From IMG/VR virus record IMGVR_UViG_3300027896_000159, positions 1-29,302 of that record: a DNA stretch of 29,302 bases, one strand, 5' to 3'. A program made the translations under genes and the position numbers. Under the pieces are notes generated by a model, which did not search any database, was not told the origin of the DNA, and saw nothing but the letters and a program-made list of their open reading frames with translations. Source of the DNA: a virus. Positions 764 through 20,044 of this stretch are shown in pieces. Position 1 is the first letter of the stretch. Each line of letters begins with the position of its first letter.

Positions 764-1270
764 TCATTTAAAAAGATTTTCGATTTCATGAACCGCATCC
801 CAATACCGTTCCCACTTCCAGCTTAACGTTTCACGACAATGTAATTTTAACTCACCCCGGATCTGCTTTGCGCTTGCTGAAGAAGGAGTCGGCCACATAG
901 TTCTCTTTGGATTGCTTTCTTCAACACTTTTTAATACACAGTTAACTACAGTTTTTGCATCTTCCGATAAGTGATTTAGCTGATCTCGGAACTCCACAAT
1001 CTGTTGTGGTTGTGATACGCCATCGACCTTAAGAGCATCTTCAAGAGGAAGGAACTTGCTTGAATGAGGTTCTTTTATTTTATTGTAACGTTTACGTTTG
1101 GACAACGTTAGATTATGAAATAACCAAGTACTGAAACCTCCTTTCTCAGGGTTGTGCGTTCGAATAGCTTTCATAAATGGATCTACTCCTTCTCCTTCCT
1201 GAGTAGCTTCCCATCCAAGTATTTGGATGAACATTCCTTGATGGTCTTCATATCGATGTTCAACTTGCAT
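764..1270 (-). CDS. Sigma-70-like phage transcription factor
   Basis: 168 aa. The ATG at 1270 comes one base after the stop of the preceding gene, whose end (AGAGGAATAGG) also supplies the ribosome-binding site. Residues about 33-60 (FMKAIRTHNPEKGGFSTWL followed by a basic stretch) match the pattern of sigma-70 region 2 (A..F..A...Y/NP.KG.FSTWL...R). Residues about 99-113 (LSEDAKTVVNCVLKS) and the C-terminal SAKQIRGEL...WKWERYWDAVHEIENL resemble the region-4-like half of small phage sigma-like proteins. Inferred role: redirecting host RNA polymerase or acting as a transcription cofactor. The N-terminus before region 2 is short, so it may be a reduced version. Promoter specificity is unknown. 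Confidence 0.65.
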   Translation of the reverse strand: MQVEHRYEDHQGMFIQILGWEATQEGEGVDPFMKAIRTHNPEKGGFSTWLFHNLTLSKRKRYNKIKEPHSSKFLPLEDALKVDGVSQPQQIVEFRDQLNHLSEDAKTVVNCVLKSVEESNPKRTMWPTPSSASAKQIRGELKLHCRETLSWKWERYWDAVHEIENLFK

Positions 1271-1958: not shown

Positions 1959-2237
1959 TTAAGATAAATCTTTTACTTTCTTTGCCAGTTCTTCAATGGC
2001 CATTTGGTGTTTGTGAATTTCTTTTTCCAGTTCTTCCAAAGTCTCGGCTCTTGGCAGCATGTCTTTAATTACTGGGAAGCCATATCGGAAGTAAAGGTCA
2101 ACAACGTCTTCTTTTCCTTTAATCGAAGGATGAAACATATAGACCTTTTCAATTACCTGGTATTTGTCATCGGGAAAGTCTTGCCGGCTGTCTTTGGTCT
2201 TTTTGTTCAACAAGTTCAAAAATTCTGATTTCATCAT
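1959..2237 (-). CDS. Hypothetical phage protein with C-terminal coiled coil
   Basis: 92 aa. The ATG at 2237 overlaps the TGA of the upstream 57-aa frame as ATGA, so translation is probably coupled; a weak GGGGAT lies upstream. The middle (YQVIEKVYMFHPSIKGKEDVV, then LYFRYGFPVIKDMLPRAE) looks like a conserved globular core. Residues about 65-92 (LEELEKEIHKHQMAIEELAKKVKDL) form a heptad-like coiled coil, so it may oligomerise. No function recognised. An ATG directly after the first (codon 2) is an alternative start. Confidence 0.65.
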   Translation of the reverse strand: MMKSEFLNLLNKKTKDSRQDFPDDKYQVIEKVYMFHPSIKGKEDVVDLYFRYGFPVIKDMLPRAETLEELEKEIHKHQMAIEELAKKVKDLS

Positions 2238-2407
2238 GGCTGATCCCCATATTTGATTGTTTCGACCTTATGGTCATCATCAGTTTGAGTAAATAACTCG
2301 CAGACAATCACTCCAAGGTGACGGACCTTATTGCCTGGCCACCTTTTTCCGGTCCCACTCTTTCGAGCTTCGATCCTTTCTTCTTCAGGCCCTGTTGTCC
2401 TGGTCAA
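2234..2407 (-). CDS. Hypothetical 57-aa protein with TTG start
   Basis: The frame is open on the minus strand from a TTG at 2407 to a TGA at 2236-2234, which overlaps the next ATG by four bases (ATGA). There is no ATG in the frame; an in-frame stop lies two codons before the TTG. The product has protein-like composition, for example GTGKRWPGNKVRHLGVIVCE and a C-terminal HKVETIKYGDQP. Upstream AAGATAAAGA is only a weak ribosome-binding site. It would be the first gene of the leftward operon. Alternatively the open frame could be a leader region; the coupled overlap is the main support. Confidence 0.5.
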   Translation of the reverse strand: MTRTTGPEEERIEARKSGTGKRWPGNKVRHLGVIVCELFTQTDDDHKVETIKYGDQP

Positions 2408-2516
2408 TCTTTATCTTATGATTAATCTTAACCCCAATTCAAAAAGAAGGAAAGAAAAAAGTAAAAGAATTTAAAGAAAAGTAAGAAAAAAAAAGATAAA
2501 AACATAATGATAACAT

Positions 2517-2546
2517 AACATATTGGTATAAAAAGAGATTGTTCAA
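2517..2546 (-). promoter_or_regulatory. Possible leftward promoter
   Basis: On the minus strand a TTGAAC hexamer (2546-2541) and a TATGTT hexamer (2522-2517) are separated by 18 bp. This is a fair but not strong match to a sigma-70 promoter, placed to drive the leftward operon that starts at 2407. AT-richness makes chance matches likely. Confidence 0.35.
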
Positions 2547-2607
2547 CATGACTTTCCTTAATACTTAATATACTTAATTATTTTTATAAAAAGATTGAAA
2601 AAGAGGG

Positions 2608-2613
2608 TATAAT
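2608..2613 (+). promoter_or_regulatory. Probable -10 box of the rightward (late) operon
   Basis: A perfect TATAAT lies 45 bp upstream of the endolysin ATG, in the divergent spacer. No good TTGACA-like -35 is present at 16-18 bp; the sequence there is A/T-rich. It could therefore need an activator, a phage-encoded sigma-like factor, or an upstream AT element. The expected start of transcription (about 2619-2621) falls immediately before the palindrome at 2623-2644. Confidence 0.5.
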
Positions 2614-2622
2614 AGAGAAATT

Positions 2623-2644
2623 AAAATTTGAAAATTCAAATTTT
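2623..2644. promoter_or_regulatory. Perfect 22-bp palindrome at the expected transcription start (operator candidate)
   Basis: The left arm AAAATTTGAA (2623-2632) and right arm TTCAAATTTT (2635-2644) are exact reverse complements around a central AA. It begins 10 bp after the TATAAT box and ends just before the endolysin ribosome-binding site. It could be a dimeric repressor operator over +1, or an mRNA hairpin next to the ribosome-binding site. Confidence 0.5.
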
Positions 2645-2658
2645 TGAAGAGGAAAACA

Positions 2659-3138
2659 ATGGAACTGACTATAAACCAAAAAGCATTTCTGGACATGATT
2701 GCAATATCAGAAATTGGAAGGGCTTTGTTAGACGCTTCTGATAATGGATACAATGTAATAGTCGGAAGTACCTTCCTCAAGCCAGACCTCTTCACAGACT
2801 ATTCCGATCATCCAAGAAAGCTTGTTCACTTTACGAACGGTATCCCGTCCAGTACAGCAGCAGGACGTTATCAAATAAAACAATCTATTTTTGATTTTTA
2901 CACCAAACAACTCAATCTCGATAGAACATTTTCAAAAGACAATCAAGACGCCATTGCAATGCAACTCATAAAAGAGTGTCATGCAATCGACTTAATAAAC
3001 AATGGAAAAATAACATCTGCAATTCTTCGTTGTTCCAGCAGATGGGCTTCCTTCCCAGGAAATCAAGATCAACAACACATAAACAATATAACAGACCTGA
3101 TTGAGGCCTATACAGAATCAGGTGGAATATTAAACTGA
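2659..3138 (+). CDS. Lambda R-like endolysin
   Basis: 159 aa, close to the 158 aa of lambda R. The ATG at 2659 is preceded by GAAGAGG; an upstream in-frame TTG at 2644 lies inside the palindrome and is less likely. The blocks FLDMIAISE, GYNVIVGS, LFTDYSDHPRKLV, AAGRYQ, DAIAMQLIKE and CSSRWASFPG run in the same order as in lambda R. Glu18 corresponds to the catalytic Glu19 of lambda R, which cleaves the glycan strand as a lytic transglycosylase in the periplasm. No signal peptide is seen, so export would need a holin. It overlaps terS by one base (TGATG). Its place ahead of the terminase genes, away from any obvious lysis cassette, is unusual. Confidence 0.93.
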   Translation: MELTINQKAFLDMIAISEIGRALLDASDNGYNVIVGSTFLKPDLFTDYSDHPRKLVHFTNGIPSSTAAGRYQIKQSIFDFYTKQLNLDRTFSKDNQDAIAMQLIKECHAIDLINNGKITSAILRCSSRWASFPGNQDQQHINNITDLIEAYTESGGILN

Positions 3139-3824
3139 TGACACGTACAAACCCACCCAAACATAAAAGAGTAAGAACAACTCTTCCAAAAAAAGTCAAA
3201 CAACAACCTCGTTCAAGACCAACAACCACATCTCAACGTATTAAGAACATGAATACAAAGATGTTGGTTGACAAGAAGATTAAGAAAGAAACAGATACAA
3301 ACTTTCGTAAAAGAGATTTACCAATCGAAGCCAGGTGGTGGGAAGCGAGAAGCACATCAGGAAGAAGACCAATATTCAAGACTCCAAACGAATTATACAA
3401 AGCTTGTATTGAGTATATAAGATGGGCAGAAGAGAATCCTTATTATGAGTATAAGGTCTGTGGATTGGATCACGGAGTTCCTATAATAGAGTATATTCCA
3501 AAGAAAAGACCGCTTACTATTGGTATGTTATCAATATTTTTAGATATTTCTGTTATGACCTGGGGAGATTATAAGAACAACAAAGGGGAAGGATTTTCTT
3601 ACATCTGTAACACAATTGACGAAATGATAAGAGAACAGAAGTTTGGAGGAGCAGCAAGTGGGTTCTTTAATCATGCCATAATTGCAAGGGATTTAGGGTT
3701 AACAGATAAGCGGGAATTAACCGGCGCAGAAGGACGACCATTGATACCGCCTGAACAGAATGATGAAAGAGCAAAGCAAAGCAGATTACAACTTTTGGCT
3801 GTGTTTGCAGATGATGAAGAATAA
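3138..3824 (+). CDS. terS: Terminase small subunit (P22 gp3-like)
   Basis: 228 aa. The start ATG overlaps the endolysin TGA. After a basic, probably disordered N-terminal 60 residues (many K/R/P/T), residues about 75-210 match the pattern of P22 gp3-type small terminases: GRRPIFKTPNELYKACIEYI, WAEENPYYEYKV, KKRPLTIGMLSIFLDIS, FSYICNTIDEMIREQKF, GAASGFFNHAIIARDLGLTDK. The role is recognition of the concatemer packaging site and presentation of DNA to the large subunit. TerL lies just downstream after two tiny genes. The long basic tail is an extension compared with the core family and may bind DNA. Confidence 0.85.
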   Translation: MTRTNPPKHKRVRTTLPKKVKQQPRSRPTTTSQRIKNMNTKMLVDKKIKKETDTNFRKRDLPIEARWWEARSTSGRRPIFKTPNELYKACIEYIRWAEENPYYEYKVCGLDHGVPIIEYIPKKRPLTIGMLSIFLDISVMTWGDYKNNKGEGFSYICNTIDEMIREQKFGGAASGFFNHAIIARDLGLTDKRELTGAEGRPLIPPEQNDERAKQSRLQLLAVFADDEE

Positions 3825-3850
3825 TTTATATATAAGAGGGAGGATAAGAG

Positions 3851-3955
3851 ATGGCCATAACAGATCCAACATTTACAAATAATATAACAGCCACAATCCA
3901 TATTCCCAGACCTTCCGACATGGAGCTTGACGACAAAATAACATGGAAACCCTGA
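3851..3955 (+). CDS. Hypothetical 34-aa peptide between terS and terL
   Basis: The ATG at 3851 has a strong ribosome-binding site (GGGAGG with a 7-base spacer). The product MAITDPTFTNNITATIHIPR... ends at a TGA at 3953-3955. It has no recognised domain. Its frame overlaps the start of the next small gene (3943), suggesting coupled translation. The clear ribosome-binding site supports expression; it might also serve mainly as a leader for the downstream frame. Confidence 0.45.
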   Translation: MAITDPTFTNNITATIHIPRPSDMELDDKITWKP

Positions 3956-4116
3956 TCGAAAAAAGATTGAGGTTAAGAAAACTTCAAGCAGTAATATTGA
4001 AGAAACTCATAAAGACATTGAGATCAGAATTTTACTTTGTAAATCGAAAGATTGAAGCATTAGAGAAGGAAGGATTAACCCAGGGGCAATCAGCGAAATT
4101 AGATGGCAAAGAATAG
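3943..4116 (+). CDS. Hypothetical 57-aa basic helical protein
   Basis: Runs from an ATG at 3943, which lies inside the preceding 34-aa frame, to a TAG at 4114-4116 inside the first codons of terL (14-bp overlap). The product begins METLIEKRLRLRKLQAVILK and continues with alternating basic and hydrophobic residues, typical of a coiled-coil or nucleic-acid-binding helix. No own ribosome-binding site is visible, so it would depend on coupling to the upstream frame. No homologue recognised. Its overlaps on both sides fill the terS-terL gap exactly, which supports it being a gene. Confidence 0.5.
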   Translation: METLIEKRLRLRKLQAVILKKLIKTLRSEFYFVNRKIEALEKEGLTQGQSAKLDGKE

Positions 4117-5644
4117 AAACATACCCAGCTTGATAGAGTTCTGGAAGATCAAGCGCCATCATCGCGGACAACCGTGTATTGTAAAACCTTTTCATCGAGT
4201 AATAGCAAAAGCATATACTCAGATGTTGATGGGAGAATTACCAGAGGGGAAGGATAATCTGATGATTCTTATGCCACCGAGGACAGGAAAAACAGATTTA
4301 TGTGACACAGCTATAGAATATGGTCAGAGCTTCTTTCCAGATTCAGAGAGTATAAAATCTGGATTTGGTCTTGAACTTCCAGTTGAATCAGTGATGGGAA
4401 TACGATCGACATTAAGTAGTGACTGGTATCGTTCGATGGTTGGAAGTGATTGGGGTTGTCATGTTAAGATGCAGGGAGAAAAGTTACCAGGACGACAAGA
4501 TCATTTTCGTACAGAAGAAGGGGGAAGTGTAAAAGCAGCAGGAGTTGGAACTGGAGTTGTTGGATTTGGAGCAGGTAAATTGAGACCTGAGTTTGGCGGG
4601 GCAATTTATATGGATGATTTACTCAAGCCTCAAGATATGCGTTCGGCCGTAATGAGAAAAGGAGCAGCTGAATATATTCAAGCAGGATTAAAACCAAGAC
4701 GGAACCGTCAAAGCAAACCATATACTCCAATGCTTCTTGTTATGCAGCGTTTAGTTCCAGAAGATCCTGCGGGAATTCTTTTACGAGAAGAGAGAGAAGA
4801 TTGGCACATTATCTGTATTCCTGCTCTTGATCCTATTACCCAACTTTCAATCTGGGAAGAAAGGATCAGTACAGATGAGCTTATGAAGATGGCTGATCGG
4901 GATCCAGAAAAGTTTCATGGTCAGTATCAACAAGATCCTAGATCAGCATCAGGAACGATACTTCACAGAAAGGATTGGAGAACATGGTATGATCGGATGG
5001 AAGTGGAAAATCGCTTAACACTGAAGATCATCACCTCTGATACCGCATTTAAGGAAGGGGAGCACAACGACTGGTCGGTATTTCAGTGTTGGGGGTTTGA
5101 AGGCAGAATAGGAATGTATTTGATTGATCAGATAAAAGGGCGCTGGGAATATCCCGATCTGCTTGTGTATGGCCAAGCGTTTATTGCAAAACATATTCAA
5201 AATCTGAGAGGTATTACTCCAGCAACAGAATTCTGGATTGAAGACAAGGCAAGTGGACAGTCTCTTATTCAATCATTTAAAAGGATGGGGATTCCAGCCA
5301 GGGCATGGGAACCGAAAGACAAGACCCCTAAGGACAAGTACGGCCGAGCAAGATTAATGAGTGACCCATTGTCTGCCGGCCGGATGTTTGTACCGGTTGA
5401 GAGTACTGAACAAAGTCTTCGATATGAAGATCTTCCGGTCGAGTTTCAACAAAGAGTAGCAAGAAGCCAGTTCGTCAATCTTCCCAATATTAAGTGGGTC
5501 AAGGGATTCAAAGATGAAGGAGAGGCATTCACCGCAGATGACAGCCACATGTATGATGATCAGGTAGATTCGGCAACAGAGGCAACTTGTATTTGGATAG
5601 AACGTGGTGGGGCAACTGGGGAACTTCCAGTTCCATTCAACTGA
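4103..5644 (+). CDS. terL: Terminase large subunit (packaging ATPase and nuclease)
   Basis: 513 aa. The ATPase half shows a Walker A at residues 56-64 (LMPPRTGKT) and a Walker B at about 168-173 (IYMDDL). In the nuclease half the expected acidic residues of the RNase H-like fold are visible: Asp313 in ITSDTAFKEG, Glu380/Asp381 in FWIEDKASG, and Asp485/Asp486/Asp489 in DDSHMYDDQVDS. The protein pumps DNA into the prohead through the portal and cuts the concatemer. The ATG at 4103 overlaps the upstream 57-aa gene by 14 bp. Length and domain order are normal for the family. Confidence 0.95.
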   Translation: MAKNRNIPSLIEFWKIKRHHRGQPCIVKPFHRVIAKAYTQMLMGELPEGKDNLMILMPPRTGKTDLCDTAIEYGQSFFPDSESIKSGFGLELPVESVMGIRSTLSSDWYRSMVGSDWGCHVKMQGEKLPGRQDHFRTEEGGSVKAAGVGTGVVGFGAGKLRPEFGGAIYMDDLLKPQDMRSAVMRKGAAEYIQAGLKPRRNRQSKPYTPMLLVMQRLVPEDPAGILLREEREDWHIICIPALDPITQLSIWEERISTDELMKMADRDPEKFHGQYQQDPRSASGTILHRKDWRTWYDRMEVENRLTLKIITSDTAFKEGEHNDWSVFQCWGFEGRIGMYLIDQIKGRWEYPDLLVYGQAFIAKHIQNLRGITPATEFWIEDKASGQSLIQSFKRMGIPARAWEPKDKTPKDKYGRARLMSDPLSAGRMFVPVESTEQSLRYEDLPVEFQQRVARSQFVNLPNIKWVKGFKDEGEAFTADDSHMYDDQVDSATEATCIWIERGGATGELPVPFN

Positions 5645-5710
5645 GGCAAGAAGATAATTTTTTTTAAGATGTTCCGATTATTTAATCCATTATTAAACAA
5701 GGTAAGAGAA

Positions 5711-5983
5711 ATGAGCGCAGAACTAGATGTATTGAAACAACAGACAGTAGACCTTAAAATAAATGTGCAGAACAACGCAACAGTTATTACCGCAGCAATA
5801 GCAGAGATTCAGAAGATGGCCGCAAATATTGCTGATTTGACGATAAAACTAAACGACGCCATTGCAGCCAATGATCCGGCAGCTATCCAGGCAGCAGCAG
5901 ATGATATTGCGGCAGAGAATGTGGCCATCAATAATCAGACTACCGCATTGAATGTAGCTATTGCTCCAGCTCCGGCCGTATAA
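5711..5983 (+). CDS. Hypothetical Ala-rich coiled-coil protein
   Basis: 90 aa from the ATG at 5711, which has AAGG 8 bases upstream; an in-frame ATG at 5669 would give 104 aa but has a poorly placed ribosome-binding site. The whole protein is heptad-like (LDVLKQQTVDLKINVQNN, then Ala-rich repeats of ADLTIKLNDAIAAND type) and ends in a short APAPAV tail. No domain recognised. It lies between terL and a membrane protein, where phages often carry small structural or lysis accessory genes, but nothing in the sequence fixes its role. Confidence 0.6.
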   Translation: MSAELDVLKQQTVDLKINVQNNATVITAAIAEIQKMAANIADLTIKLNDAIAANDPAAIQAAADDIAAENVAINNQTTALNVAIAPAPAV

Positions 5984-6028
5984 AGAAGTCGGATAAAGAA
6001 GAGAGATCGATCACAAAGGAGAAGAATT

Positions 6029-6442
6029 ATGAACTATGATTCGTTCAATAAAGCCAGAAGTATTGCCATTGTAGGCTTCGTCGTCATTGTAATATTTACG
6101 ATTATAATGGTGATTCTTACCGGGAATAGTGGAGCAGCCGATATGGTATTGAGTGACAATACTCCATTAACTTCCCCAAGTTTTCTTGATTGGATACAAA
6201 ATAATTCTTCTTCTTTACTTGCTGCTGCTTTAGGGATTAGTGAGACTCTTGCTCATATTCCTGGAATTAAATCGAATTCCATTACTCAGTTGATTTGCCG
6301 GATTATTATTTTTCTGGCTAGAGTAAAAGGAAACGAAGGGGAGCAGATACAAAAAGAGTGGGAAAAGTCTTTGGTTGATCCTGGACAGAACCCTTCAAAT
6401 TGTAAAGACATTGGAAAAGTAGCTGGGGAACCAAACAAATGA
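6029..6442 (+). CDS. Small membrane protein (possible holin-like)
   Basis: 137 aa with an excellent ribosome-binding site (AAGGAG). Residues about 11-31 (SIAIVGFVVIVIFTIIMVIL) form a clear transmembrane helix. A second moderately hydrophobic region (SSSLLAAALGISETLAHIPGI, about 60-80) matches a motif I recall from small phage membrane proteins (LSE.LA.IPG.K.NSI.QL). The C-terminus is hydrophilic. It could be a holin, because the endolysin needs one and no other classical holin is seen, but the evidence is only topology. It overlaps the portal start by four bases (ATGA). Confidence 0.55.
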   Translation: MNYDSFNKARSIAIVGFVVIVIFTIIMVILTGNSGAADMVLSDNTPLTSPSFLDWIQNNSSSLLAAALGISETLAHIPGIKSNSITQLICRIIIFLARVKGNEGEQIQKEWEKSLVDPGQNPSNCKDIGKVAGEPNK

Positions 6443-8274
6443 CCAAGCTTGTTCGTACAAATTTCTCTAATGCGATGTTCACTTCTCCAACTGGCGGACA
6501 GTTGGGTTCAGGGGATCGTGCTGCTTGGTCTTCGATGCCGACTTATTCAGGCAATCCATATGACAGCAACGACTTTGTTTTTCGCTGGAGACAGTTTGTC
6601 CATTTGTATGAGACGAGTTGGGAAGCCAGAAAGATAATTAGGATTATCCCGGAAGATGCTTTGAGAAAATCATGGATTATTGAAGATTTGCCAGAAGAAA
6701 TGGCCAAACCTATTCAGATTCATCTTGAAAGACTTCGTTTTGCAGATATTTTGAAACGGTCGATGATGTTAGAGCGTCTACTTGGCGGCTGTCTTACTTT
6801 TATGGGACTTGATTCCAATAAAGATGATCCAAGTGAGGCGTACGATATTAGAACTGGCAGCAGATTGAGATTTTTCAATGCAATCCCGGTTAGTAGGATA
6901 AGCAAACAACGTTGGGATACCAATCCACTTTCTCCTAATTACATGAGGGCCAGCCAGTATATGATTAATGGCCAGACTGTTGATGTAAGTCGGATGTTGG
7001 TCTGGGATGGTGATCCATTATTTGACTCTTATGATTTTGCCCTTACAAATTTTCGTGCTAACCTTGCTGGATTTGGTCCTTCCAAGCTCGCTCCTTTATG
7101 GGATGATATTGTTAGAGCAGTTGGGGCAAGACACGCCAGTTATCAGTTGATTCAGATGAGTAATGCCATTGTAGCTGCTGTTGATGGACTTCAGGATCTT
7201 CAGGCAACAAGAAATGGAAAACAGGCTCTTGAACTTGTAAAGGACATTGCAAATCAAATTGGGTTATATCGGGCAGCAGTAATTGATCGGGAAAAGGTAA
7301 CAATTACTCAACAGGCAGCATCTTTTGGGAGTGTCCCTGAATTGCTCCTTCTTTATGTTCAAATTCTTTCTGCCGGTTCTGATATTCCTGCTTGTCGTTT
7401 TCTTGGTCAAGCTCCTGGGGGATTGAGTACAGATGACAGTAGTGGAAAAGAAAATTATTATAACGTCATTGACGCCATCCAGCATCAACAAATTGAACCA
7501 AAGATCAGAAAAGTATATGATGTCGTTGGATATGAGTTGTTTCCCGGTCAATGGCAGAAAGCACGTGATGAATTTATTGTCAAATTTCCGCCGATGTGGA
7601 ATCAGACTGAGCTGGAAGAAGCCCAGACTGCAACGGCCAGGCTCGACAATGTTATGAAGTTAGTTCAAGCCGGATTAATGAGTGATCCTCATGCGCTTGA
7701 AGAGATAAACGCAAAAAATATTCTTTCCGTGAATTTGGATGATACTGATCTTCAAAACTTACAAGACGTAAGAGAAGAGCAAAAATCGCTTTCTATGCCA
7801 GATCAAGGGGAAGACTCCAGTTTTAATAAATCGAACGAATTTGAAAGCAAAGAATCGCAAACAAGTGGTAATAATCAGTCTACTGCTACCAAGGAAGTTA
7901 GAAACTTACGGAAGTCTTTCTATTTTAAGAATGCAGACCGGATTTCGTTGTTGATCAAAGCAGCTGGATATGATCCGGAAGTGTTTGATCATGAGCAATT
8001 TCGAGCTGGTTATACAACAGAGCAAGAACATTCTGATGTGACTCATGGAGATCCAGTTGAAGTGGCGAAGATTGTGTTGGCTCATTTGACAGAGAAACCG
8101 GACTATTATTTATTATTGAAAGAGTATGTGGAAAATGTCACTCCAACAGAAGAATTGAAATCGTTGTTTGCTTCTTTATCAACGGTCCAAGTTCAAGAAG
8201 TATATGAACAATGGTTAAAAGAGAATGAAGTTAAATCCACCAAAACAAACAAAAGAACGAGGAAACCGAAATGA
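6439..8274 (+). CDS. Portal protein (DUF1073-type) with DUF5661-like C-terminal domain
   Basis: 611 aa. Residues about 40-430 follow the DUF1073 portal pattern: ...ARKIIRIIPEDALRKSW, a central core with LVWDGDPL and GFGPSKLAPLWDDI, and SAGSDIPACRFLGQAPGGLS. The portal is the dodecameric DNA entry ring at one vertex, and the gene follows the terminase genes as expected. After a low-complexity linker (about 455-485), residues about 505-567 carry F..EQFRAGYTTEQEHSDV and VEVAKIVLAHLTEKPDYY, resembling DUF5661, a domain of unknown function. The C-terminal tail is Lys/Thr-rich. The fused domain may be a capsid-interior module. Confidence 0.88.
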   Translation: MTKLVRTNFSNAMFTSPTGGQLGSGDRAAWSSMPTYSGNPYDSNDFVFRWRQFVHLYETSWEARKIIRIIPEDALRKSWIIEDLPEEMAKPIQIHLERLRFADILKRSMMLERLLGGCLTFMGLDSNKDDPSEAYDIRTGSRLRFFNAIPVSRISKQRWDTNPLSPNYMRASQYMINGQTVDVSRMLVWDGDPLFDSYDFALTNFRANLAGFGPSKLAPLWDDIVRAVGARHASYQLIQMSNAIVAAVDGLQDLQATRNGKQALELVKDIANQIGLYRAAVIDREKVTITQQAASFGSVPELLLLYVQILSAGSDIPACRFLGQAPGGLSTDDSSGKENYYNVIDAIQHQQIEPKIRKVYDVVGYELFPGQWQKARDEFIVKFPPMWNQTELEEAQTATARLDNVMKLVQAGLMSDPHALEEINAKNILSVNLDDTDLQNLQDVREEQKSLSMPDQGEDSSFNKSNEFESKESQTSGNNQSTATKEVRNLRKSFYFKNADRISLLIKAAGYDPEVFDHEQFRAGYTTEQEHSDVTHGDPVEVAKIVLAHLTEKPDYYLLLKEYVENVTPTEELKSLFASLSTVQVQEVYEQWLKENEVKSTKTNKRTRKPK

Positions 8275-8561
8275 AAAACTTACTTACAACATTAATTATT
8301 GGACTTTTGCTTGTCATAGGACTTTCTAGTTGCTCATACCAACCAGCAATAAACGCAGCCGAGAAAGTAGCACTATCGAATGCAGAAGCAGCTAACGATA
8401 ATCTTCTTCTTGTAAACACTATAGTTATTTGCTCTATGTCGTATCGGACCTTTCTTCGTCACCCGGAAACATGGAGTTGGATAAATCAGATGTGTGCTCC
8501 TGGGGTAAAAGAGAAAACTCCAAATGATCTGCTAACAGTTCCAAAAGATCAGGTTAAATAA
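8271..8561 (+). CDS. Phage lipoprotein (possible lysis accessory/spanin-like)
   Basis: 96 aa. The N-terminus is a lipoprotein signal: MK then a hydrophobic stretch (LLTTLIIGLLLVIG) ending in the lipobox LSSC, with Cys21 as the expected lipidated residue. The mature part contains two more cysteines (CSMSYRTFLRHPETW...MC). It overlaps the portal stop by four bases (ATGA). Phage lipoproteins of this size include outer-membrane spanins, but no partner inner-membrane spanin lies beside it, so that role is only a possibility. Confidence 0.75.
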   Translation: MKNLLTTLIIGLLLVIGLSSCSYQPAINAAEKVALSNAEAANDNLLLVNTIVICSMSYRTFLRHPETWSWINQMCAPGVKEKTPNDLLTVPKDQVK

Positions 8562-8577
8562 ATAAGAGGAATACATT

Positions 8578-9054
8578 ATGTCTCAAGTAATTGATACCGA
8601 GTTTTCATATCAGAAGTTTGGGGACAACTGCTTTCAGCTCACCAGCCGGTTTCAGTTTCATTCCAGGATCGTGACTGGTAACCCTGCGACGATGGCTTTC
8701 ATCCAATATGATGGTGAAGGACTATTTGTCCTTTATCCCGGCTTTTGTTGGGATGGGGCGAGTGACGGAAATCCTCATCAGACGGATAAAGAACTTTGGT
8801 TCTCGATTATGCATGATTGTAAATTCCGATTGTTCCGAGAAGGGTTAATTAATCCGGATGAGTGGTTTACAGTTGCGAACGAGGAAATGGAGGAGGACGC
8901 CAGGAATGTAGGCATTTCTCATTTGGTTGCTGATATTATTGAATTAGCTGTTCAGGAGTTTGGGAAAAAAAATGCATATGGGGGCGAACCTATTCTGATA
9001 GTAAATAGTCATTTGCCGAGAACCATCACTGATATTAAGAACGAGAAAATATGA
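8578..9054 (+). CDS. DUF1353-like protein
   Basis: 158 aa. The segment YPGFCWDGASDG...ELWFSIMHDCKFRLFREGLI resembles the core of the DUF1353 family (GF.tD.AS.P......a.~HD.LY....G), with conserved Asp, Ser and the HD pair present (Asp65 region and MHD). The family is common in phage structural regions; its biochemical role is not established. A weak ribosome-binding site (AAGAGGAA) precedes the ATG. The next gene overlaps by four bases. Confidence 0.6.
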   Translation: MSQVIDTEFSYQKFGDNCFQLTSRFQFHSRIVTGNPATMAFIQYDGEGLFVLYPGFCWDGASDGNPHQTDKELWFSIMHDCKFRLFREGLINPDEWFTVANEEMEEDARNVGISHLVADIIELAVQEFGKKNAYGGEPILIVNSHLPRTITDIKNEKI

Positions 9055-9413
9055 AGCCAGTTGTAATACCACTACCGAATGATACTGCTGGTGATACCTG
9101 GAAAGGTGTGACTATTGGCCCTGTTTTGATAAATGGGTCTCAACCTTCACATCCTTTGGTTTCTTGTTCTTTATGCTTTTATCGTCAGACAGATAATGTT
9201 TTGGCTTATGCCTTTAGAAATGTTCCTGGAAGCGGAGAAGGGACAATAACGATAACTAATGCAAATACTTGGTTGGTAAATATTCCAGTACAGGTATGTC
9301 CTCTTACCCCTGGAAAATATAATTGGTTTTTTGTTGCGGTAGATTCACTTGGAAATCGAGACACTTATTATACCGGAGTGATTGAAATAGGTATAGGATC
9401 GAATAATGGCTGA
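9051..9413 (+). CDS. Beta-rich tail-appendage protein (BppU-N-like)
   Basis: 120 aa, predominantly beta-strand pattern, ending LTPGKYNWFFVAVDSLGNRDTYYTGVIEIG. This ending matches the common layout of a small baseplate/fibre-associated domain in which a strand motif ..pG.Y.y.....s.G....y..G...I closes the fold. It overlaps both neighbours (ATGA with 8578-9054; 8 bp with the collagen-like fibre gene), suggesting stoichiometric co-expression with the fibre. Probable adaptor for the fibre; function inferred from context. Confidence 0.5.
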   Translation: MKPVVIPLPNDTAGDTWKGVTIGPVLINGSQPSHPLVSCSLCFYRQTDNVLAYAFRNVPGSGEGTITITNANTWLVNIPVQVCPLTPGKYNWFFVAVDSLGNRDTYYTGVIEIGIGSNNG

Positions 9414-11667
9414 TTCAATTAACGCCCCCATAACAGAAGAAGTAATAATAATTTCTGCGCCAGTAGTCGTTGGGGAAATTGGAGCGCAAGGAGCGCAAGG
9501 AACTCCTGGCTTAAATGGTTTGCAAGGAATTGATGGTCATTCTCCTGTTGTCGGAATATCAGGGGATCAAATAACAATAGATGGGCAAATTACCGGAGAT
9601 CATCTTACAGGACCACAAGGAATTAAAGGTGATGTAGGACCACAAGGAATTAAAGGTGATGTAGGACCACAAGGAATTAAAGGTGATACAGGACCACAAG
9701 GAATTAAAGGTGATGTAGGACCACAAGGAATTAAAGGTGATGTAGGACCACAAGGAATTAAAGGTGATGTAGGACCACAAGGAATTAAAGGTGATGTAGG
9801 GTCACAAGGAATTAAAGGTGATGTAGGGTCACAAGGAATTAAAGGTGATACAGGACCACAAGGAATTAAAGGTGATACAGGACCACAAGGAATTAAAGGT
9901 GATACAGGACCTCCTGGAACAACTGATTATAATTATCTTACAAATAAACCAACAATCCCGTCTGCCCTATCTGCCTTGTCAGATGATACTAATAATAGAC
10001 GAGTATCAGATACGGAAAAATCAACTTGGAATGGGAAACAAAATCATTCGACCGCTCTTGACAATGTATCGGGGGTAAATACTGGAGATCAAGATCTTTC
10101 TGGATTGGTTTCTAAATCTACTACTGTCAATGGCCATGATCTAAATTCTAACATAACAATTTCCGGATCTGATATTCAAGTTTCTCAGATCGGCACACCT
10201 TCAACGGTTGATACTTTAAGCGATTTTTTCAATTTAGGATGGTCTGCTGGAGTTGTCAGTGGCGGTAATATTACTGATAATGGGGATGGTTCGATAAATA
10301 TTTCTTCCGGAGAGGGCATATTGAGATCATCCGCTGATACTCATGCCCCTATTTACAGTTCAACCTTTTCGGGGATAACTGCTGATTTTCCAGCTGATGG
10401 AGCAACGACATATTATTTTATTGATTATAACGCCGGGTCTTTTGTCATCCGATCGTCAACAATTATTACCTCTTTCAATTGTTTGGACAAATGCCACCTT
10501 TATACAATCAGCAGAGAAGGAACAAATCTATTTATTCTAGACGCTCGCGAGCAAAACGTTGATAGCAATAGGAAGGCCAGAAAACGTAATTATGAGACAG
10601 CTCCTTTTGCACATGCCCCTGGTGGAACAATACTTGGAGCGTCCGGTCTTTTCTTGAGTTTGACGGCCGGTGTCTTTTATTTCAGCTATGTTAGGATTCC
10701 TCATGGAGTTTTTGATACATCCCTGTCAGGCACGACAGTAGATAGGGTGATTATGTCTCACTGGCAAAACGGGTCTGGGGGATGGAATTATTCGGCAACT
10801 GATAAGCAAGTTAACAATCTGAAATATGATGATACAACTGGAACGCTTCACGATCTTGATACTAATCATTTTGGAGTTAGATGGATTTATTTGATTCTTG
10901 GGATAATCCCTAAATTTTCATTTGTTTATGATACTGGGAATTACGCTCTTTTAACAGATGCAAAAAATGCTGGAGTTCCGGCGTCTCTTCCTCCTTCAAT
11001 TTTGACAAATGGGGTACTTGTTGGTAGGTGCATTGTTCAAAAATCAGCATCCTCATTATCAGATGTTTCATCATCTTTTAACGTTTCATTTGTTCCCAGC
11101 TCTGCGAGCTTGCCTTCGGTTGCAGGTGCAAATGGCCAGGTGCAGTACAATCTCAATGGCGTTCTTGCTGCTGATGCACAATTTACCTGGGATAGTGTAT
11201 CTGAATCACTAAATATCAGCGGTGCAACTATTCTTACTGATAATCCAGTGGCGATATCAGGGGCATCAACTAGTGGATTCCTTCAGGTAAATTTACAGAA
11301 TAGAACAGCAACCGACTCGGCAGATTATGTAATAACTGCTGACCTTGGGAATAATAATGCTCTTTATGCTGACCTTGGTATCGGCAATTCAAATTACTCT
11401 TCATCGGTATGGGATGCAGTTGTTCCGTATGATACCTATCTGTTCGGAGATGGGGGAAATGTAGTCCTCGCCTCTTTGTCGGTTGGAAAAAAGATTAATC
11501 ATTATATTGCACAAACAGAACACGAAATTCATCCTGCTGATTTGGTGGTTTCCATGGATGTTAACGGAATTGACCTTCCAGCAGGGAAACATTACCGGGA
11601 AAATGGATTGAGCATGAAGGCTTATATTGCAGCAATGTCAACTTCAATGGCTATGGGTGGATTTTAA
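9406..11667 (+). CDS. Collagen-like tail fibre / appendage protein
   Basis: 753 aa. A short N-terminal segment is followed by Gly-X-Y triplets from about residue 24 (GEIGAQGAQGTPGLNG), then eleven near-identical 9-residue units GPQGIKGD[V/T] (residues about 69-167) and PPG. Such segments form trimeric triple helices in phage fibres. The rest is beta-rich, typical of receptor-binding or appendage proteins: LTNKPTIPSALSALSDDTNN then STWNGKQNHSTALDNVSGVN, a common phage fibre linker, then a large domain to the C-terminus. Inferred location: virion surface fibre. It ends in TAATG overlapping the next gene. No chaperone domain was recognised. Confidence 0.82.
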   Translation: MADSINAPITEEVIIISAPVVVGEIGAQGAQGTPGLNGLQGIDGHSPVVGISGDQITIDGQITGDHLTGPQGIKGDVGPQGIKGDVGPQGIKGDTGPQGIKGDVGPQGIKGDVGPQGIKGDVGPQGIKGDVGSQGIKGDVGSQGIKGDTGPQGIKGDTGPQGIKGDTGPPGTTDYNYLTNKPTIPSALSALSDDTNNRRVSDTEKSTWNGKQNHSTALDNVSGVNTGDQDLSGLVSKSTTVNGHDLNSNITISGSDIQVSQIGTPSTVDTLSDFFNLGWSAGVVSGGNITDNGDGSINISSGEGILRSSADTHAPIYSSTFSGITADFPADGATTYYFIDYNAGSFVIRSSTIITSFNCLDKCHLYTISREGTNLFILDAREQNVDSNRKARKRNYETAPFAHAPGGTILGASGLFLSLTAGVFYFSYVRIPHGVFDTSLSGTTVDRVIMSHWQNGSGGWNYSATDKQVNNLKYDDTTGTLHDLDTNHFGVRWIYLILGIIPKFSFVYDTGNYALLTDAKNAGVPASLPPSILTNGVLVGRCIVQKSASSLSDVSSSFNVSFVPSSASLPSVAGANGQVQYNLNGVLAADAQFTWDSVSESLNISGATILTDNPVAISGASTSGFLQVNLQNRTATDSADYVITADLGNNNALYADLGIGNSNYSSSVWDAVVPYDTYLFGDGGNVVLASLSVGKKINHYIAQTEHEIHPADLVVSMDVNGIDLPAGKHYRENGLSMKAYIAAMSTSMAMGGF
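9610..9906 (+). repeat. Eleven tandem 27-bp repeats encoding GPQGIKGDV/T
   Basis: Eleven in-frame copies of a 27-bp unit (begins GGACCACAAGGAATTAAAGG) cover 297 bp inside the fibre gene. The copies are almost identical at DNA level; the variation is mainly GTA versus ACA at the last codon and TCA for CCA in units 8 and 9. The low silent divergence implies recent expansion or homogenisation, so copy number is likely to vary. Confidence 0.95.
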
Positions 11668-17461: not shown

Positions 17462-17491
17462 AACTGGTCCCGGTGAAGACCAGTTTTCTTT
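17462..17491 (+). terminator. Rho-independent terminator after the major capsid gene
   Basis: An 8-bp perfect stem, AACTGGTC (17462-17469) with GACCAGTT (17478-17485), an 8-base loop, and then a T-rich tail (TTTTCTTT in part overlapping the stem end). It lies between the capsid gene stop and the next gene, with no clear promoter after it, so it probably reduces rather than stops transcription into the tail genes. Confidence 0.8.
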
Positions 17492-17518: not shown

Positions 17519-17995
17519 ATGTCAACAAGAACACGAAGAACTACAGTAGTTGGAGAACCACAGAGAGTTGAGAAAGAAGTCAAAAAAAATGAAATTGATA
17601 AAATGGTCAAGGACATGAAGAAAAAGGTTGTGGCAGCTCATGGACGAGGAGGGGAAGTGATGATTGCAAATCATCACACTGCCGACTTTCTCTTTCCAAG
17701 AGTTTCCCCATCGGGATTATCGATCCCTCCAATGTCCCTGCCTGCACAGATGGCCACTCCAGTTGATAGAGAAATCTGGAAAGAGATTAAAAAGATGCCA
17801 GTCGTACAACATTGGATCGACAGGGGCTTGTTGGCTGAGGTCCGTAGCGCGGGTCAAGTGCAATTGCTGGACGACACCAGTACGGATCTTGAAGTTCCCG
17901 AACATCTTCAAGAAGACGAGATCGAAGCAGAAACAGGTGGAATCCAAATATCAGCGAAGGCGAACCGGACGGGATTGGGAACAGTTACTATCTGA
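17519..17995 (+). CDS. Hypothetical protein following the major capsid gene (head-tail region)
   Basis: 158 aa. The N-terminal 40 residues are highly basic (TRTRRTTVV, KEVKKNEIDKMVKDMKKK), the middle has SIPPMSLPAQMATPVDREIW followed by KEIKKMPVVQHWIDRGLL, and the C-terminus is acidic. The segment EIW.EIK..P.VQ.WID.GLL is one I recall from small phage proteins encoded directly after the capsid gene. A ribosome-binding AAAAGGA lies 11 bases upstream. The function is unknown; it may be a minor head or connector component. Confidence 0.5.
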   Translation: MSTRTRRTTVVGEPQRVEKEVKKNEIDKMVKDMKKKVVAAHGRGGEVMIANHHTADFLFPRVSPSGLSIPPMSLPAQMATPVDREIWKEIKKMPVVQHWIDRGLLAEVRSAGQVQLLDDTSTDLEVPEHLQEDEIEAETGGIQISAKANRTGLGTVTI

Positions 17996-18020: not shown

Positions 18021-18419
18021 ATGGCTGGAAAAACCCCTCCTACTTTGACTGAGTTTCTTGAAGATTTCCCTGAATTTTCTTCTTTGAATTCCGGAATGAT
18101 TCAACGAAGACTTGATATTGCAATTTCTTATCTTGATTCTGCAAATTGGGATATCAATTTTTTTGAGGCCGTTGAGTTATTTGTCGCTCATCGCCTTGCA
18201 TTGAGATCAATGGAAAGTAATAGCGGTCCAACAGGAGGGATTTCAGCAGGAATTGGCCAAGTGGCTTCGAGTTCTGGAGCTGGTATGAGCACTTCATTTT
18301 CAACAATTGATGTAAGTTCAAAAGACATTTCACAATTCTGGTTCAGCAAGACCTCATATGGCCAGGACTTTTTGAGATTAAGACAAGAAACAATGCCATA
18401 TGGTGCGATGAGCTCATGA
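18021..18419 (+). CDS. Head-tail connector protein (DUF4054-like)
   Basis: 132 aa. Opening LTEFLEDFPEFSSLN, a helix (IQRRLDIAISYLDSANWD), FVAHRLAL, and the ending WFSKTSYGQDFLRLRQETMPYGAM match the order of the DUF4054/gp6-like connector family (FPEF..., AH.LAL, T.YG..fL.L). Such proteins dock below the portal. The upstream ribosome-binding site GAGGAA is good. It overlaps the glycosyltransferase start by four bases (ATGA), tying the glycan cassette to the connector gene in one transcript. Confidence 0.78.
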   Translation: MAGKTPPTLTEFLEDFPEFSSLNSGMIQRRLDIAISYLDSANWDINFFEAVELFVAHRLALRSMESNSGPTGGISAGIGQVASSSGAGMSTSFSTIDVSSKDISQFWFSKTSYGQDFLRLRQETMPYGAMSS

Positions 18420-20044
18420 ACATTATAATTACAATACCAGGATTTACTCCTCATGGTGGTATTCGAGTTATTATTGAGTGGGCGAATCGTCTGAGCGAAA
18501 AACATCATGTGACTCTTTACAGCAATAGGCCTCAGCAGGCTCAGGAACAAAAATGGATAAGAATAAATCAAAAAGTTGTAATTACTCATTCTGCTGATTG
18601 TTTATCAGGAAGTAACGTATTGATTGTTACTAGTCCACATTATGTTCATTTATTAACTGATAAGAGGTCCCCAGAAAAGAAGTTCATTTTCCTTCAGATG
18701 CTGGAACATTTATTTCGACCAAACGATATGGGATGGCAAGCTGCTTGTTGGCAGCTGTACCTTAGTATATATCCAATGATTTGCATCAGTCAATGGAATA
18801 TTGATTTTTTAAAAAAGCTTGGGAGAACCGCGACAACACATCTTGTTGGTAATGGAGTAAACATAAATGATTTTCCGATTATAACTGATTCAAAAAAGAA
18901 AGATTTGAAGACAGTTTTGATTGAAGGCCTTGTTACTACTAATCCGACAAAAGATGCATATAATATTGCCGCAAAAGTTGGCCGAAGGTTAAAGGATGAA
19001 GGCTATACCATATTTTCATACGGGATACTTCCCCTTGGAAAATTTGCTGGAATTTCTAATGTTCATTTACAGAATCCAACATTGGAACATCTGAATGAAC
19101 TGTATGAAAAAGCTACAGTGCTTATCAAAGCGAGTTTACTTGATGCCAGGAGCTGTTCTCCTATGGAGGCGATGACAAAAGGAACTGTAACTGCAAGAGC
19201 TTCTGAATATGCAGATGATGATTTGATTCATGGTAAAAATTGTTTGAGATGCGAATATAACGAGGAAAGCCTGTATCAAATTACGAAACAGTTATTGGAT
19301 GATTCAGCATTACGAAATAGATTAAAAAAAGAATGTTTAAATCATGTTAAAAAGTATTCTTGGGATTATTGGATGGCCAAGATTGAAGATATTATTGAAA
19401 ATAAGTTTGAGTTGGATCGTCTTTGTATTATCTCCGTTGTATATGATGAGCCGGAATGGAGAACCACTCAAGCAAAGTTGAATCTTACTGGATATCCGAT
19501 TAATTATGTAAGCAGGAATGGAGTTGGAAGTCTGGCCAAGGCTTTGAACGATGGTTTTAAAAAATATTCAAAGCCTTGGCATGATTACGTTTGGTTTGTA
19601 ACTAATGTCGATTTTGACCCAGGTCTTCCGACTGATCTGGTAAAGAAGATGGATGAAACTAAATTTGCAGCACTTCATCCATCTTTTGATAGTGATCATC
19701 CCTTTTGTAGAAATAATGGAACAAGAGAAGTAGTCGAATCTCTGTTTGTAGAATTTACTTGTCCGATAGTGAGAACAGATGTTTTTTGTCAGGAATATTT
19801 GGATGAGAAAATGCCATATTGGGGACATGATCTTGATTGGGGTTATCGCTTACGAGAAAAAGGACATCAGCTTGGTATTTATCATGGTCGAAAAGTAGAT
19901 CACATTTACATCAGAAATAACCAACAACAACACTTGATAACTGAAGACAGGAAGAGACTTAGAGCGTCAACAGATGAGAATACTCGTCTGGCTCTGATTC
20001 ATAAATATGGCGAAAATTGGAAAGAAAAGGTGTGGCCACAATGA
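18416..20044 (+). CDS. Two-domain glycosyltransferase (GT-B/GT4-like fused to GT-A/GT2-like)
   Basis: 542 aa. Residues 1-335 look like a GT4-type GT-B domain: PHGGIR at 12-17 as the N-terminal glycine loop, VGNGVNI at 144-150, and DARSCSPMEAMTKGT at 243-257, corresponding to the EX7E donor-site motif with Asp in place of the first Glu. Residues about 336-542 look like a GT-A domain: LCIISVVYDEPEW, YVWFVTNVDFDP (395-402, DxD-like NVDFD), and YWGHDLDWGYRLREKGHQ (468-485) with His496, the usual acceptor-side pattern of GT2 enzymes. Together they could add two sugars in sequence. It overlaps the connector gene and the next gene by four bases each. Target (virion protein or host glycan) unknown. 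Confidence 0.85.
   Translation: MNIIITIPGFTPHGGIRVIIEWANRLSEKHHVTLYSNRPQQAQEQKWIRINQKVVITHSADCLSGSNVLIVTSPHYVHLLTDKRSPEKKFIFLQMLEHLFRPNDMGWQAACWQLYLSIYPMICISQWNIDFLKKLGRTATTHLVGNGVNINDFPIITDSKKKDLKTVLIEGLVTTNPTKDAYNIAAKVGRRLKDEGYTIFSYGILPLGKFAGISNVHLQNPTLEHLNELYEKATVLIKASLLDARSCSPMEAMTKGTVTARASEYADDDLIHGKNCLRCEYNEESLYQITKQLLDDSALRNRLKKECLNHVKKYSWDYWMAKIEDIIENKFELDRLCIISVVYDEPEWRTTQAKLNLTGYPINYVSRNGVGSLAKALNDGFKKYSKPWHDYVWFVTNVDFDPGLPTDLVKKMDETKFAALHPSFDSDHPFCRNNGTREVVESLFVEFTCPIVRTDVFCQEYLDEKMPYWGHDLDWGYRLREKGHQLGIYHGRKVDHIYIRNNQQQHLITEDRKRLRASTDENTRLALIHKYGENWKEKVWPQ

Follow-up and report, generated by a model that had tools for sequence, protein, structure and literature searches.

Introduction

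The late promoter A3 of phage phi29 has a poor -35 element and needs protein p4, which binds inverted repeats. These p4 sites, CTTTTT-15-AAAATG, are imperfect and are located between the promoters A2c and A3, in the A2b/A2c-A3 switch region (PMC3100819). A different arrangement is described for the staphylococcal late operons of the Ltr/RinA type, where P23 of phage Phi13 has, upstream of its TATA box, three perfect direct repeats plus a partial fourth, and the direct repeats are needed (PMC13123087). Among the systems compared here, the nearest case of control at the ribosome-binding site (RBS) of an endolysin gene is the leader of T4 gene e, which encodes lysozyme (PMC3014915).

Here we analyse a virus record of 29,302 bp, a genome fragment whose whole length we refer to as the window, in which a long inverted repeat separates a TATAAT hexamer from the endolysin gene. 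With moderate confidence, we interpret this repeat as the DNA operator of a dimeric regulator, encoded by phage or host, at the rightward late promoter. It would be a putative, lineage-specific operator of an activator-dependent late promoter.

An inverted repeat at the head of the rightward gene block

Leftward open reading frames run to about 2240-2410 of the window, and rightward genes follow from 2659 onward in the order endolysin, small terminase, large terminase, portal, then head and tail genes that include the major head protein and a tail sheath. The endolysin (2659-3138, plus strand; PHROG 90, E=1e-40) is the first gene of this block, and is followed on the same strand by the small terminase subunit, TerS (3138-3824; GP3_package 2e-19, phrog_606 1.6e-32), and the large subunit, TerL (4103-5644; phrog_38 5.1e-64). 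The intergenic stretch between the leftward and rightward genes is 20% GC. Elsewhere, the window encodes a small leftward protein that matches DUF3873 (1272-1478, E=3.6e-18), a tail-fibre-like protein with collagen triple-helix repeats (9406-11667; Pfam PF01391, 2.3e-20) and, within the structural block, a 542-residue protein (18416-20044) with sub-threshold glycosyltransferase matches (E=0.007) and no PHROG match. Just 3' of the major head protein gene, a hairpin (AACTGGTC...GACCAGTT, 17462-17485) followed by TTCTTTC is a possible terminator.

The inverted repeat occupies 2623-2644 and, as a proposed operator dyad, has no strand. Its left arm, AAAATTTGAA (2623-2632), and its right arm, TTCAAATTTT (2635-2644), are 10 bp long, 100% complementary and separated by 2 nt. 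An initial sequence-only reading had described the element as a perfect 22-bp palindrome; this is accurate for the arms and slightly overstated for the whole, since the AA at the centre is not self-complementary and 20 of 22 bp are palindromic. The repeat starts 10 bp past the last base of TATAAT and ends 14 bp short of the endolysin start codon (ATG at 2659). Direct reading of 2608-2661 confirmed the 10-bp arms and their distance from the hexamer, and the proposed position at the start of the rightward block of endolysin, TerS and TerL was also borne out. Allowing loops of up to 10 nt, this is the longest perfect inverted repeat in the window.

We found no second copy in the window, itself a genome fragment, even at three mismatches, the one match being the site itself, so that the search for further copies suggested by the sequence-only reading came back empty. 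Further operator copies per genome are common but not required, and some operators are single. A pattern scan of the whole viral collection returned one exact match to the repeat, in different surroundings (locus L081).

Taken by itself, the repeat is weakly significant (p about 0.03). Whole-window shuffles are expected to contain 0.35 repeats with arms of at least 10 bp. Locally, a repeat matching or beating the observed one arose in 27 of 1000 shuffles of 2401-2660, and one as good in 40 of 2000 shuffles of 2238-2658 in one run and 23 of 2000 in another. For 2409-2658 it was 46 of 1500 with dinucleotide shuffling and 35 of 1500 with order-2 sampling. These figures, together with half-site matches that are no commoner than chance (34 against 30.5 expected), speak for an alternative in which an intergenic stretch of 20% GC occasionally yields a functionless repeat with 10-bp arms. 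Against it stand the matching stretches of several related phages, described below, which also carry repeats (combined p about 1e-6 with the window left out), and we regard chance as an unlikely, if serious, explanation. Any case that the repeat exceeds chance would rest on this recurrence; the window alone is not enough.

The putative rightward promoter

The hexamer TATAAT at 2608-2613 (plus strand) is the putative -10 element of the rightward promoter, and the sequence-only reading was right that it lacks a good -35 partner. Across spacers of 14-20 bp the best candidate matched at four of six positions (TTTATA, spacer 19), with three of six at spacers 15-18, and a promoter scan of the window listed nothing at 2608. 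We therefore ruled out a classical sigma70 promoter at this position, the -35 element being missing. The promoter itself amounts to a -10-like hexamer alone, and the inverted repeat overlaps or adjoins its core. The place of the missing -35 element is occupied by TATTTTTATAAAAAGA (2579-2594, plus strand), the second copy of a 16-nt direct repeat and 88% identical to the first, TATTGGTATAAAAAGA (2521-2536, plus strand), as identified by sequence comparison. This is a two-copy family, which could have arisen by chance. Sequence inspection places the endolysin RBS in the AAGAGGA region at 2647-2653 (plus strand).

TATAAT occurs 31 times in the window against 21.0 expected, a count reached in 2 of 100 shuffles, and some copies lie near gene starts (742 on the minus strand, 13610 and 24542). 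Two candidate phage-specific promoter motifs, both derived from the site itself, were set aside as weak: GGTATAAWARAGA gave 53 matches at up to three mismatches against 37 expected, and TATAAAAAGA gave 10 at up to one mismatch against 5.3 expected.

Long inverted repeats recur upstream of the terminase genes of several relatives

TerL, TerS and the major head protein served as queries to find relatives; where TerL is present it is mostly about 48-64% identical. The searched phage collection held no close DNA relative of 2200-10199, scans with the portal protein and, in genomes, with the tail sheath found no relative, and none of the relatives found carries the repeat sequence of the window or flanks that can be aligned with it. 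Three loci (L108, L109 and L114) are 100% identical to one another in their shared region and are thus uninformative on conservation of the arms.

Before TerS and TerL, several relatives hold an unusually long perfect inverted repeat, its sequence different each time. The measure, the longest perfect arm with a loop of up to 10, was set on the window before the relatives were examined, and each stretch was compared with 1500 dinucleotide shuffles. L108 has 12-bp arms with a 2-bp spacer (TTTAATATTATA-TT-TATAATATTAAA), equalled in 1 shuffle, with the same repeat in L109 and L114. L113 has 9-bp arms with no spacer (AAAATAATATATTATTTT; 15 shuffles), and L076 has 12-bp arms with a spacer of 7 (1 shuffle). 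L122, whose stretch is cut by the contig end and whose TerS is unrecognised, has 13-bp arms with a spacer of 1 and was equalled in none. These four repeats are significant. Two further loci are borderline: L111, with the same repeat in L130 (10-bp arms, spacer 5; 88 shuffles), and L077 (9-bp arms, spacer 3; 113 shuffles). Four of the ten relatives' stretches hold nothing notable, namely L124 (388 shuffles), L118, which is cut (398), L125, which has the same divergent layout as the window (1290), and L116 (1406). In L108, L113, L076 and L077 the repeat before TerS is the longest in the fetched locus, and in L130/L111 it is tied with one elsewhere.

Combining the ten relatives by Fisher's method, with the window left out, gave 6e-7 with dinucleotide shuffles and 4e-6 with order-2 samples, or 2e-5 and 5e-5, respectively, without L076; seven relatives combined earlier had given 2e-6. 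These combined values are indicative, as we chose the region boundaries ourselves, included L122 at a late stage and counted both L076 and L077, which are relatives of one another. The count includes L116 and L122 although the profile did not recognise their TerS, and L122 and L118 although they are cut. It leaves out loci that match L108 exactly over the region in common or come from the same contigs (L109, L114, L115, L128), contigs of loci already counted (L119, L120, L121, L123, L129, L130), near-identical copies of L125 (L126/L127), loci that lack all or nearly all of the upstream stretch (L078, L110/L123, L117) and two with a distant terminase in which the profile did not find TerS (L131/L132). 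L079 and L080 (TerL 26-30%) and the upstream stretches of 73 further endolysin loci lie outside the comparison. In one locus found with the endolysin (L002, 68%), the gene neighbourhood differs in the part read.

The repeats differ in setting as well as in sequence. The distance from repeat to first start codon is 14 bp in the window and about 51-67 in L108, L111 and L113, while the L076 and L077 repeats sit closer to the leftward gene. In several loci the arms are made up wholly or almost wholly of A and T, and in L108 a TATAAT (4803-4808) falls inside the right arm. Perfect TTGACA-17-TATAAT promoters point both ways around the repeats of L076 and L077; between these opposed promoters there are also several CTAATAT-type repeats (L076:4897-5402, L077:2047-2461). 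Separately, TTAAGAAAGTAAAGAAAAAAA is common to L108:4690-4735 and L111:4660-4700, in intergenic stretches that have otherwise diverged. Read by eye, its minus strand holds TTTACT, 17 bp, and then TATAGT or TATAAT, likely a leftward early promoter. An A-rich tract in the window, at about 2441-2500, resembles the shared sequence.

A dyad that precedes the terminase genes in both the window and its relatives might also be a packaging or replication site, read by terminase in the manner of cos or pac or by a replication initiator. Sites of the cos or pac kind are often at or near terS, and one contig (L110/L123) begins about 35 bases before the TerS ATG. However, the starts of the L122, L118 and L078 contigs lie at differing distances, sequence and spacing vary among the relatives, and in the window the endolysin gene separates the dyad from terS. 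We consider a site of this kind very improbable.

DNA dyad or RNA hairpin

The sequence-only reading had offered a dimeric repressor site and an mRNA hairpin as alternatives. In four of the repeats (window, L108, L113 and L122) the spacer is 0-2 bp, a closer fit to a protein dyad than to an RNA hairpin with its loop. The L113 repeat folds at 0 kcal/mol and so forms no RNA hairpin, while those of the window, L108 and L111 fold at -4.5 to -5.3 kcal/mol. As one reading for all these loci, a dyad bound by a dimeric protein is the simpler. The repressor-site proposal is supported in so far as such a dyad is typical of a dimeric regulator and recurs as a feature in the relatives' matching stretches, but its sequence is not shared.

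The repeat could instead act in the transcript. With a start expected at about 2618-2622, 1-5 nt before the hairpin, the stem would be 5'-terminal and might slow mRNA decay; 5'-terminal stems stabilise mRNA, and the arms are 91-93% paired in computed folding. Yet the stem is weak (-4.5 to -5 kcal/mol), the leader as a whole gains nothing in folding over shuffled sequence (z=0.25), and among the relatives the L108 and L111 hairpins reach -5.3 kcal/mol at most and the L113 repeat forms none. An RNA element of this type therefore seems improbable to us. The more specific reading of a hairpin that hides the endolysin RBS was not supported: in a transcript from about 2620 the Shine-Dalgarno (SD) sequence is computed to be 67-89% unpaired, and the repeat stops at 2644, short of the SD.

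Longer transcripts behave differently in computed folding. When transcription starts at 2545 or earlier, the SD is about 25% unpaired and the AUG 8-15% (0.25 and 0.13 for a start at 2530), through pairing of the SD with CTTTCCTT (2552-2559, plus strand), predicted for starts at or upstream of about 2545. Shuffled leaders did as well in 5 of 300 cases on SD and AUG jointly and in 19 of 300 on the SD alone. This effect was found by looking, and we treat it as a lead, not a result. It would allow a two-level timer of the endolysin, in which transcripts from the upstream TATAAAAAGA site would hide the RBS by way of 2552-2559 and those starting at about 2620 would leave it open; the repeat would then be both the inner stem that joins 2552-2559 to the RBS and, as DNA, the operator that chooses the start. 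We think such a timer quite improbable; if real, it would represent logic like that of T4 gene e, separately evolved.

Candidate regulators

We found no regulator for the dyad in this record, which is a fragment. The sequence-only reading had pointed to a sigma-like protein encoded at 764-1270 (minus strand), an assignment that we could not confirm. The protein has no significant Pfam or PHROG match, the scans found no relative, and its structure model (pLDDT 45.5) is too poor for a structure search. Its best PDB sequence match by phmmer is a sigma-H factor at E=0.11, which makes a sigma role no more than conceivable. In L076 and L077, a small divergent (leftward) protein with sub-threshold HTH_17 matches (E 0.007 and 0.016) may be the equivalent regulator of those loci. 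Directly 3' of the major head protein gene, the window also encodes a protein (17519-17995) with a weak match to a helix-turn-helix DNA-binding PHROG (phrog_5497, E=3.4e-4), for which Pfam is unconvincing.

Proposed mechanism

The anatomy of the site, its lack of a -35 element and the recurrence of long perfect repeats in several relatives are observed; where transcription starts, which protein binds and with what sign it regulates are inferred. As an operator, the repeat would cover about +1 to +25, the region where transcription begins, in a promoter with a good -10 element and no -35 element. A bound protein might block initiation or promoter escape, or join in the early-to-late switch, and the outcome would be late expression of the endolysin, terminase and virion genes. 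Because the dyad lies downstream of the -10 element, general promoter architecture suggests repression rather than activation. The missing -35 element and the second copy of the 16-nt repeat over its position suggest that an activator would also be needed. Regulation of this kind is, overall, ordinary for a phage. The repeat nonetheless probably marks where the late block is controlled in a group of uncultivated phages, contractile-tailed given the tail sheath gene, and the pattern of a dyad kept while its sequence is replaced suggests that pairs of regulator and operator turn over rapidly at a single site in the genome.

Comparison with known systems

None of the papers listed by a literature search describes such a feature, judged by title and the start of the abstract; we do not claim its absence from print. 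Each of the three known systems resembles the window in some respects and differs in others. The T4 gene e leader shares with it an endolysin gene and a TATA-type late promoter near the RBS, and by computed folding the longer transcripts of the window may hide its RBS as well. In contrast to T4, neither the SD nor the AUG lies inside the window's repeat, which excludes the RBS and ends at 2644, and the predicted hiding is by a separate upstream stretch, 2552-2559 (PMC3014915). With P23 of the Ltr/RinA type, the window has in common a TATA-box promoter of a packaging and structural block, which in P23 depends on a phage factor and repeats. Unlike P23, it has one inverted repeat downstream and at most a two-copy 16-nt direct repeat upstream, short of the at least three direct repeats upstream of the TATA box that characterise that type (PMC13123087). 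It differs from phi29 in having a single perfect dyad downstream of the -10 element. Like the phi29 switch, however, it combines an early-late boundary, AT-rich inverted repeats, A-tracts and a -10 element with a poor -35; the phi29 late promoter needs a phage protein (PMC3100819).
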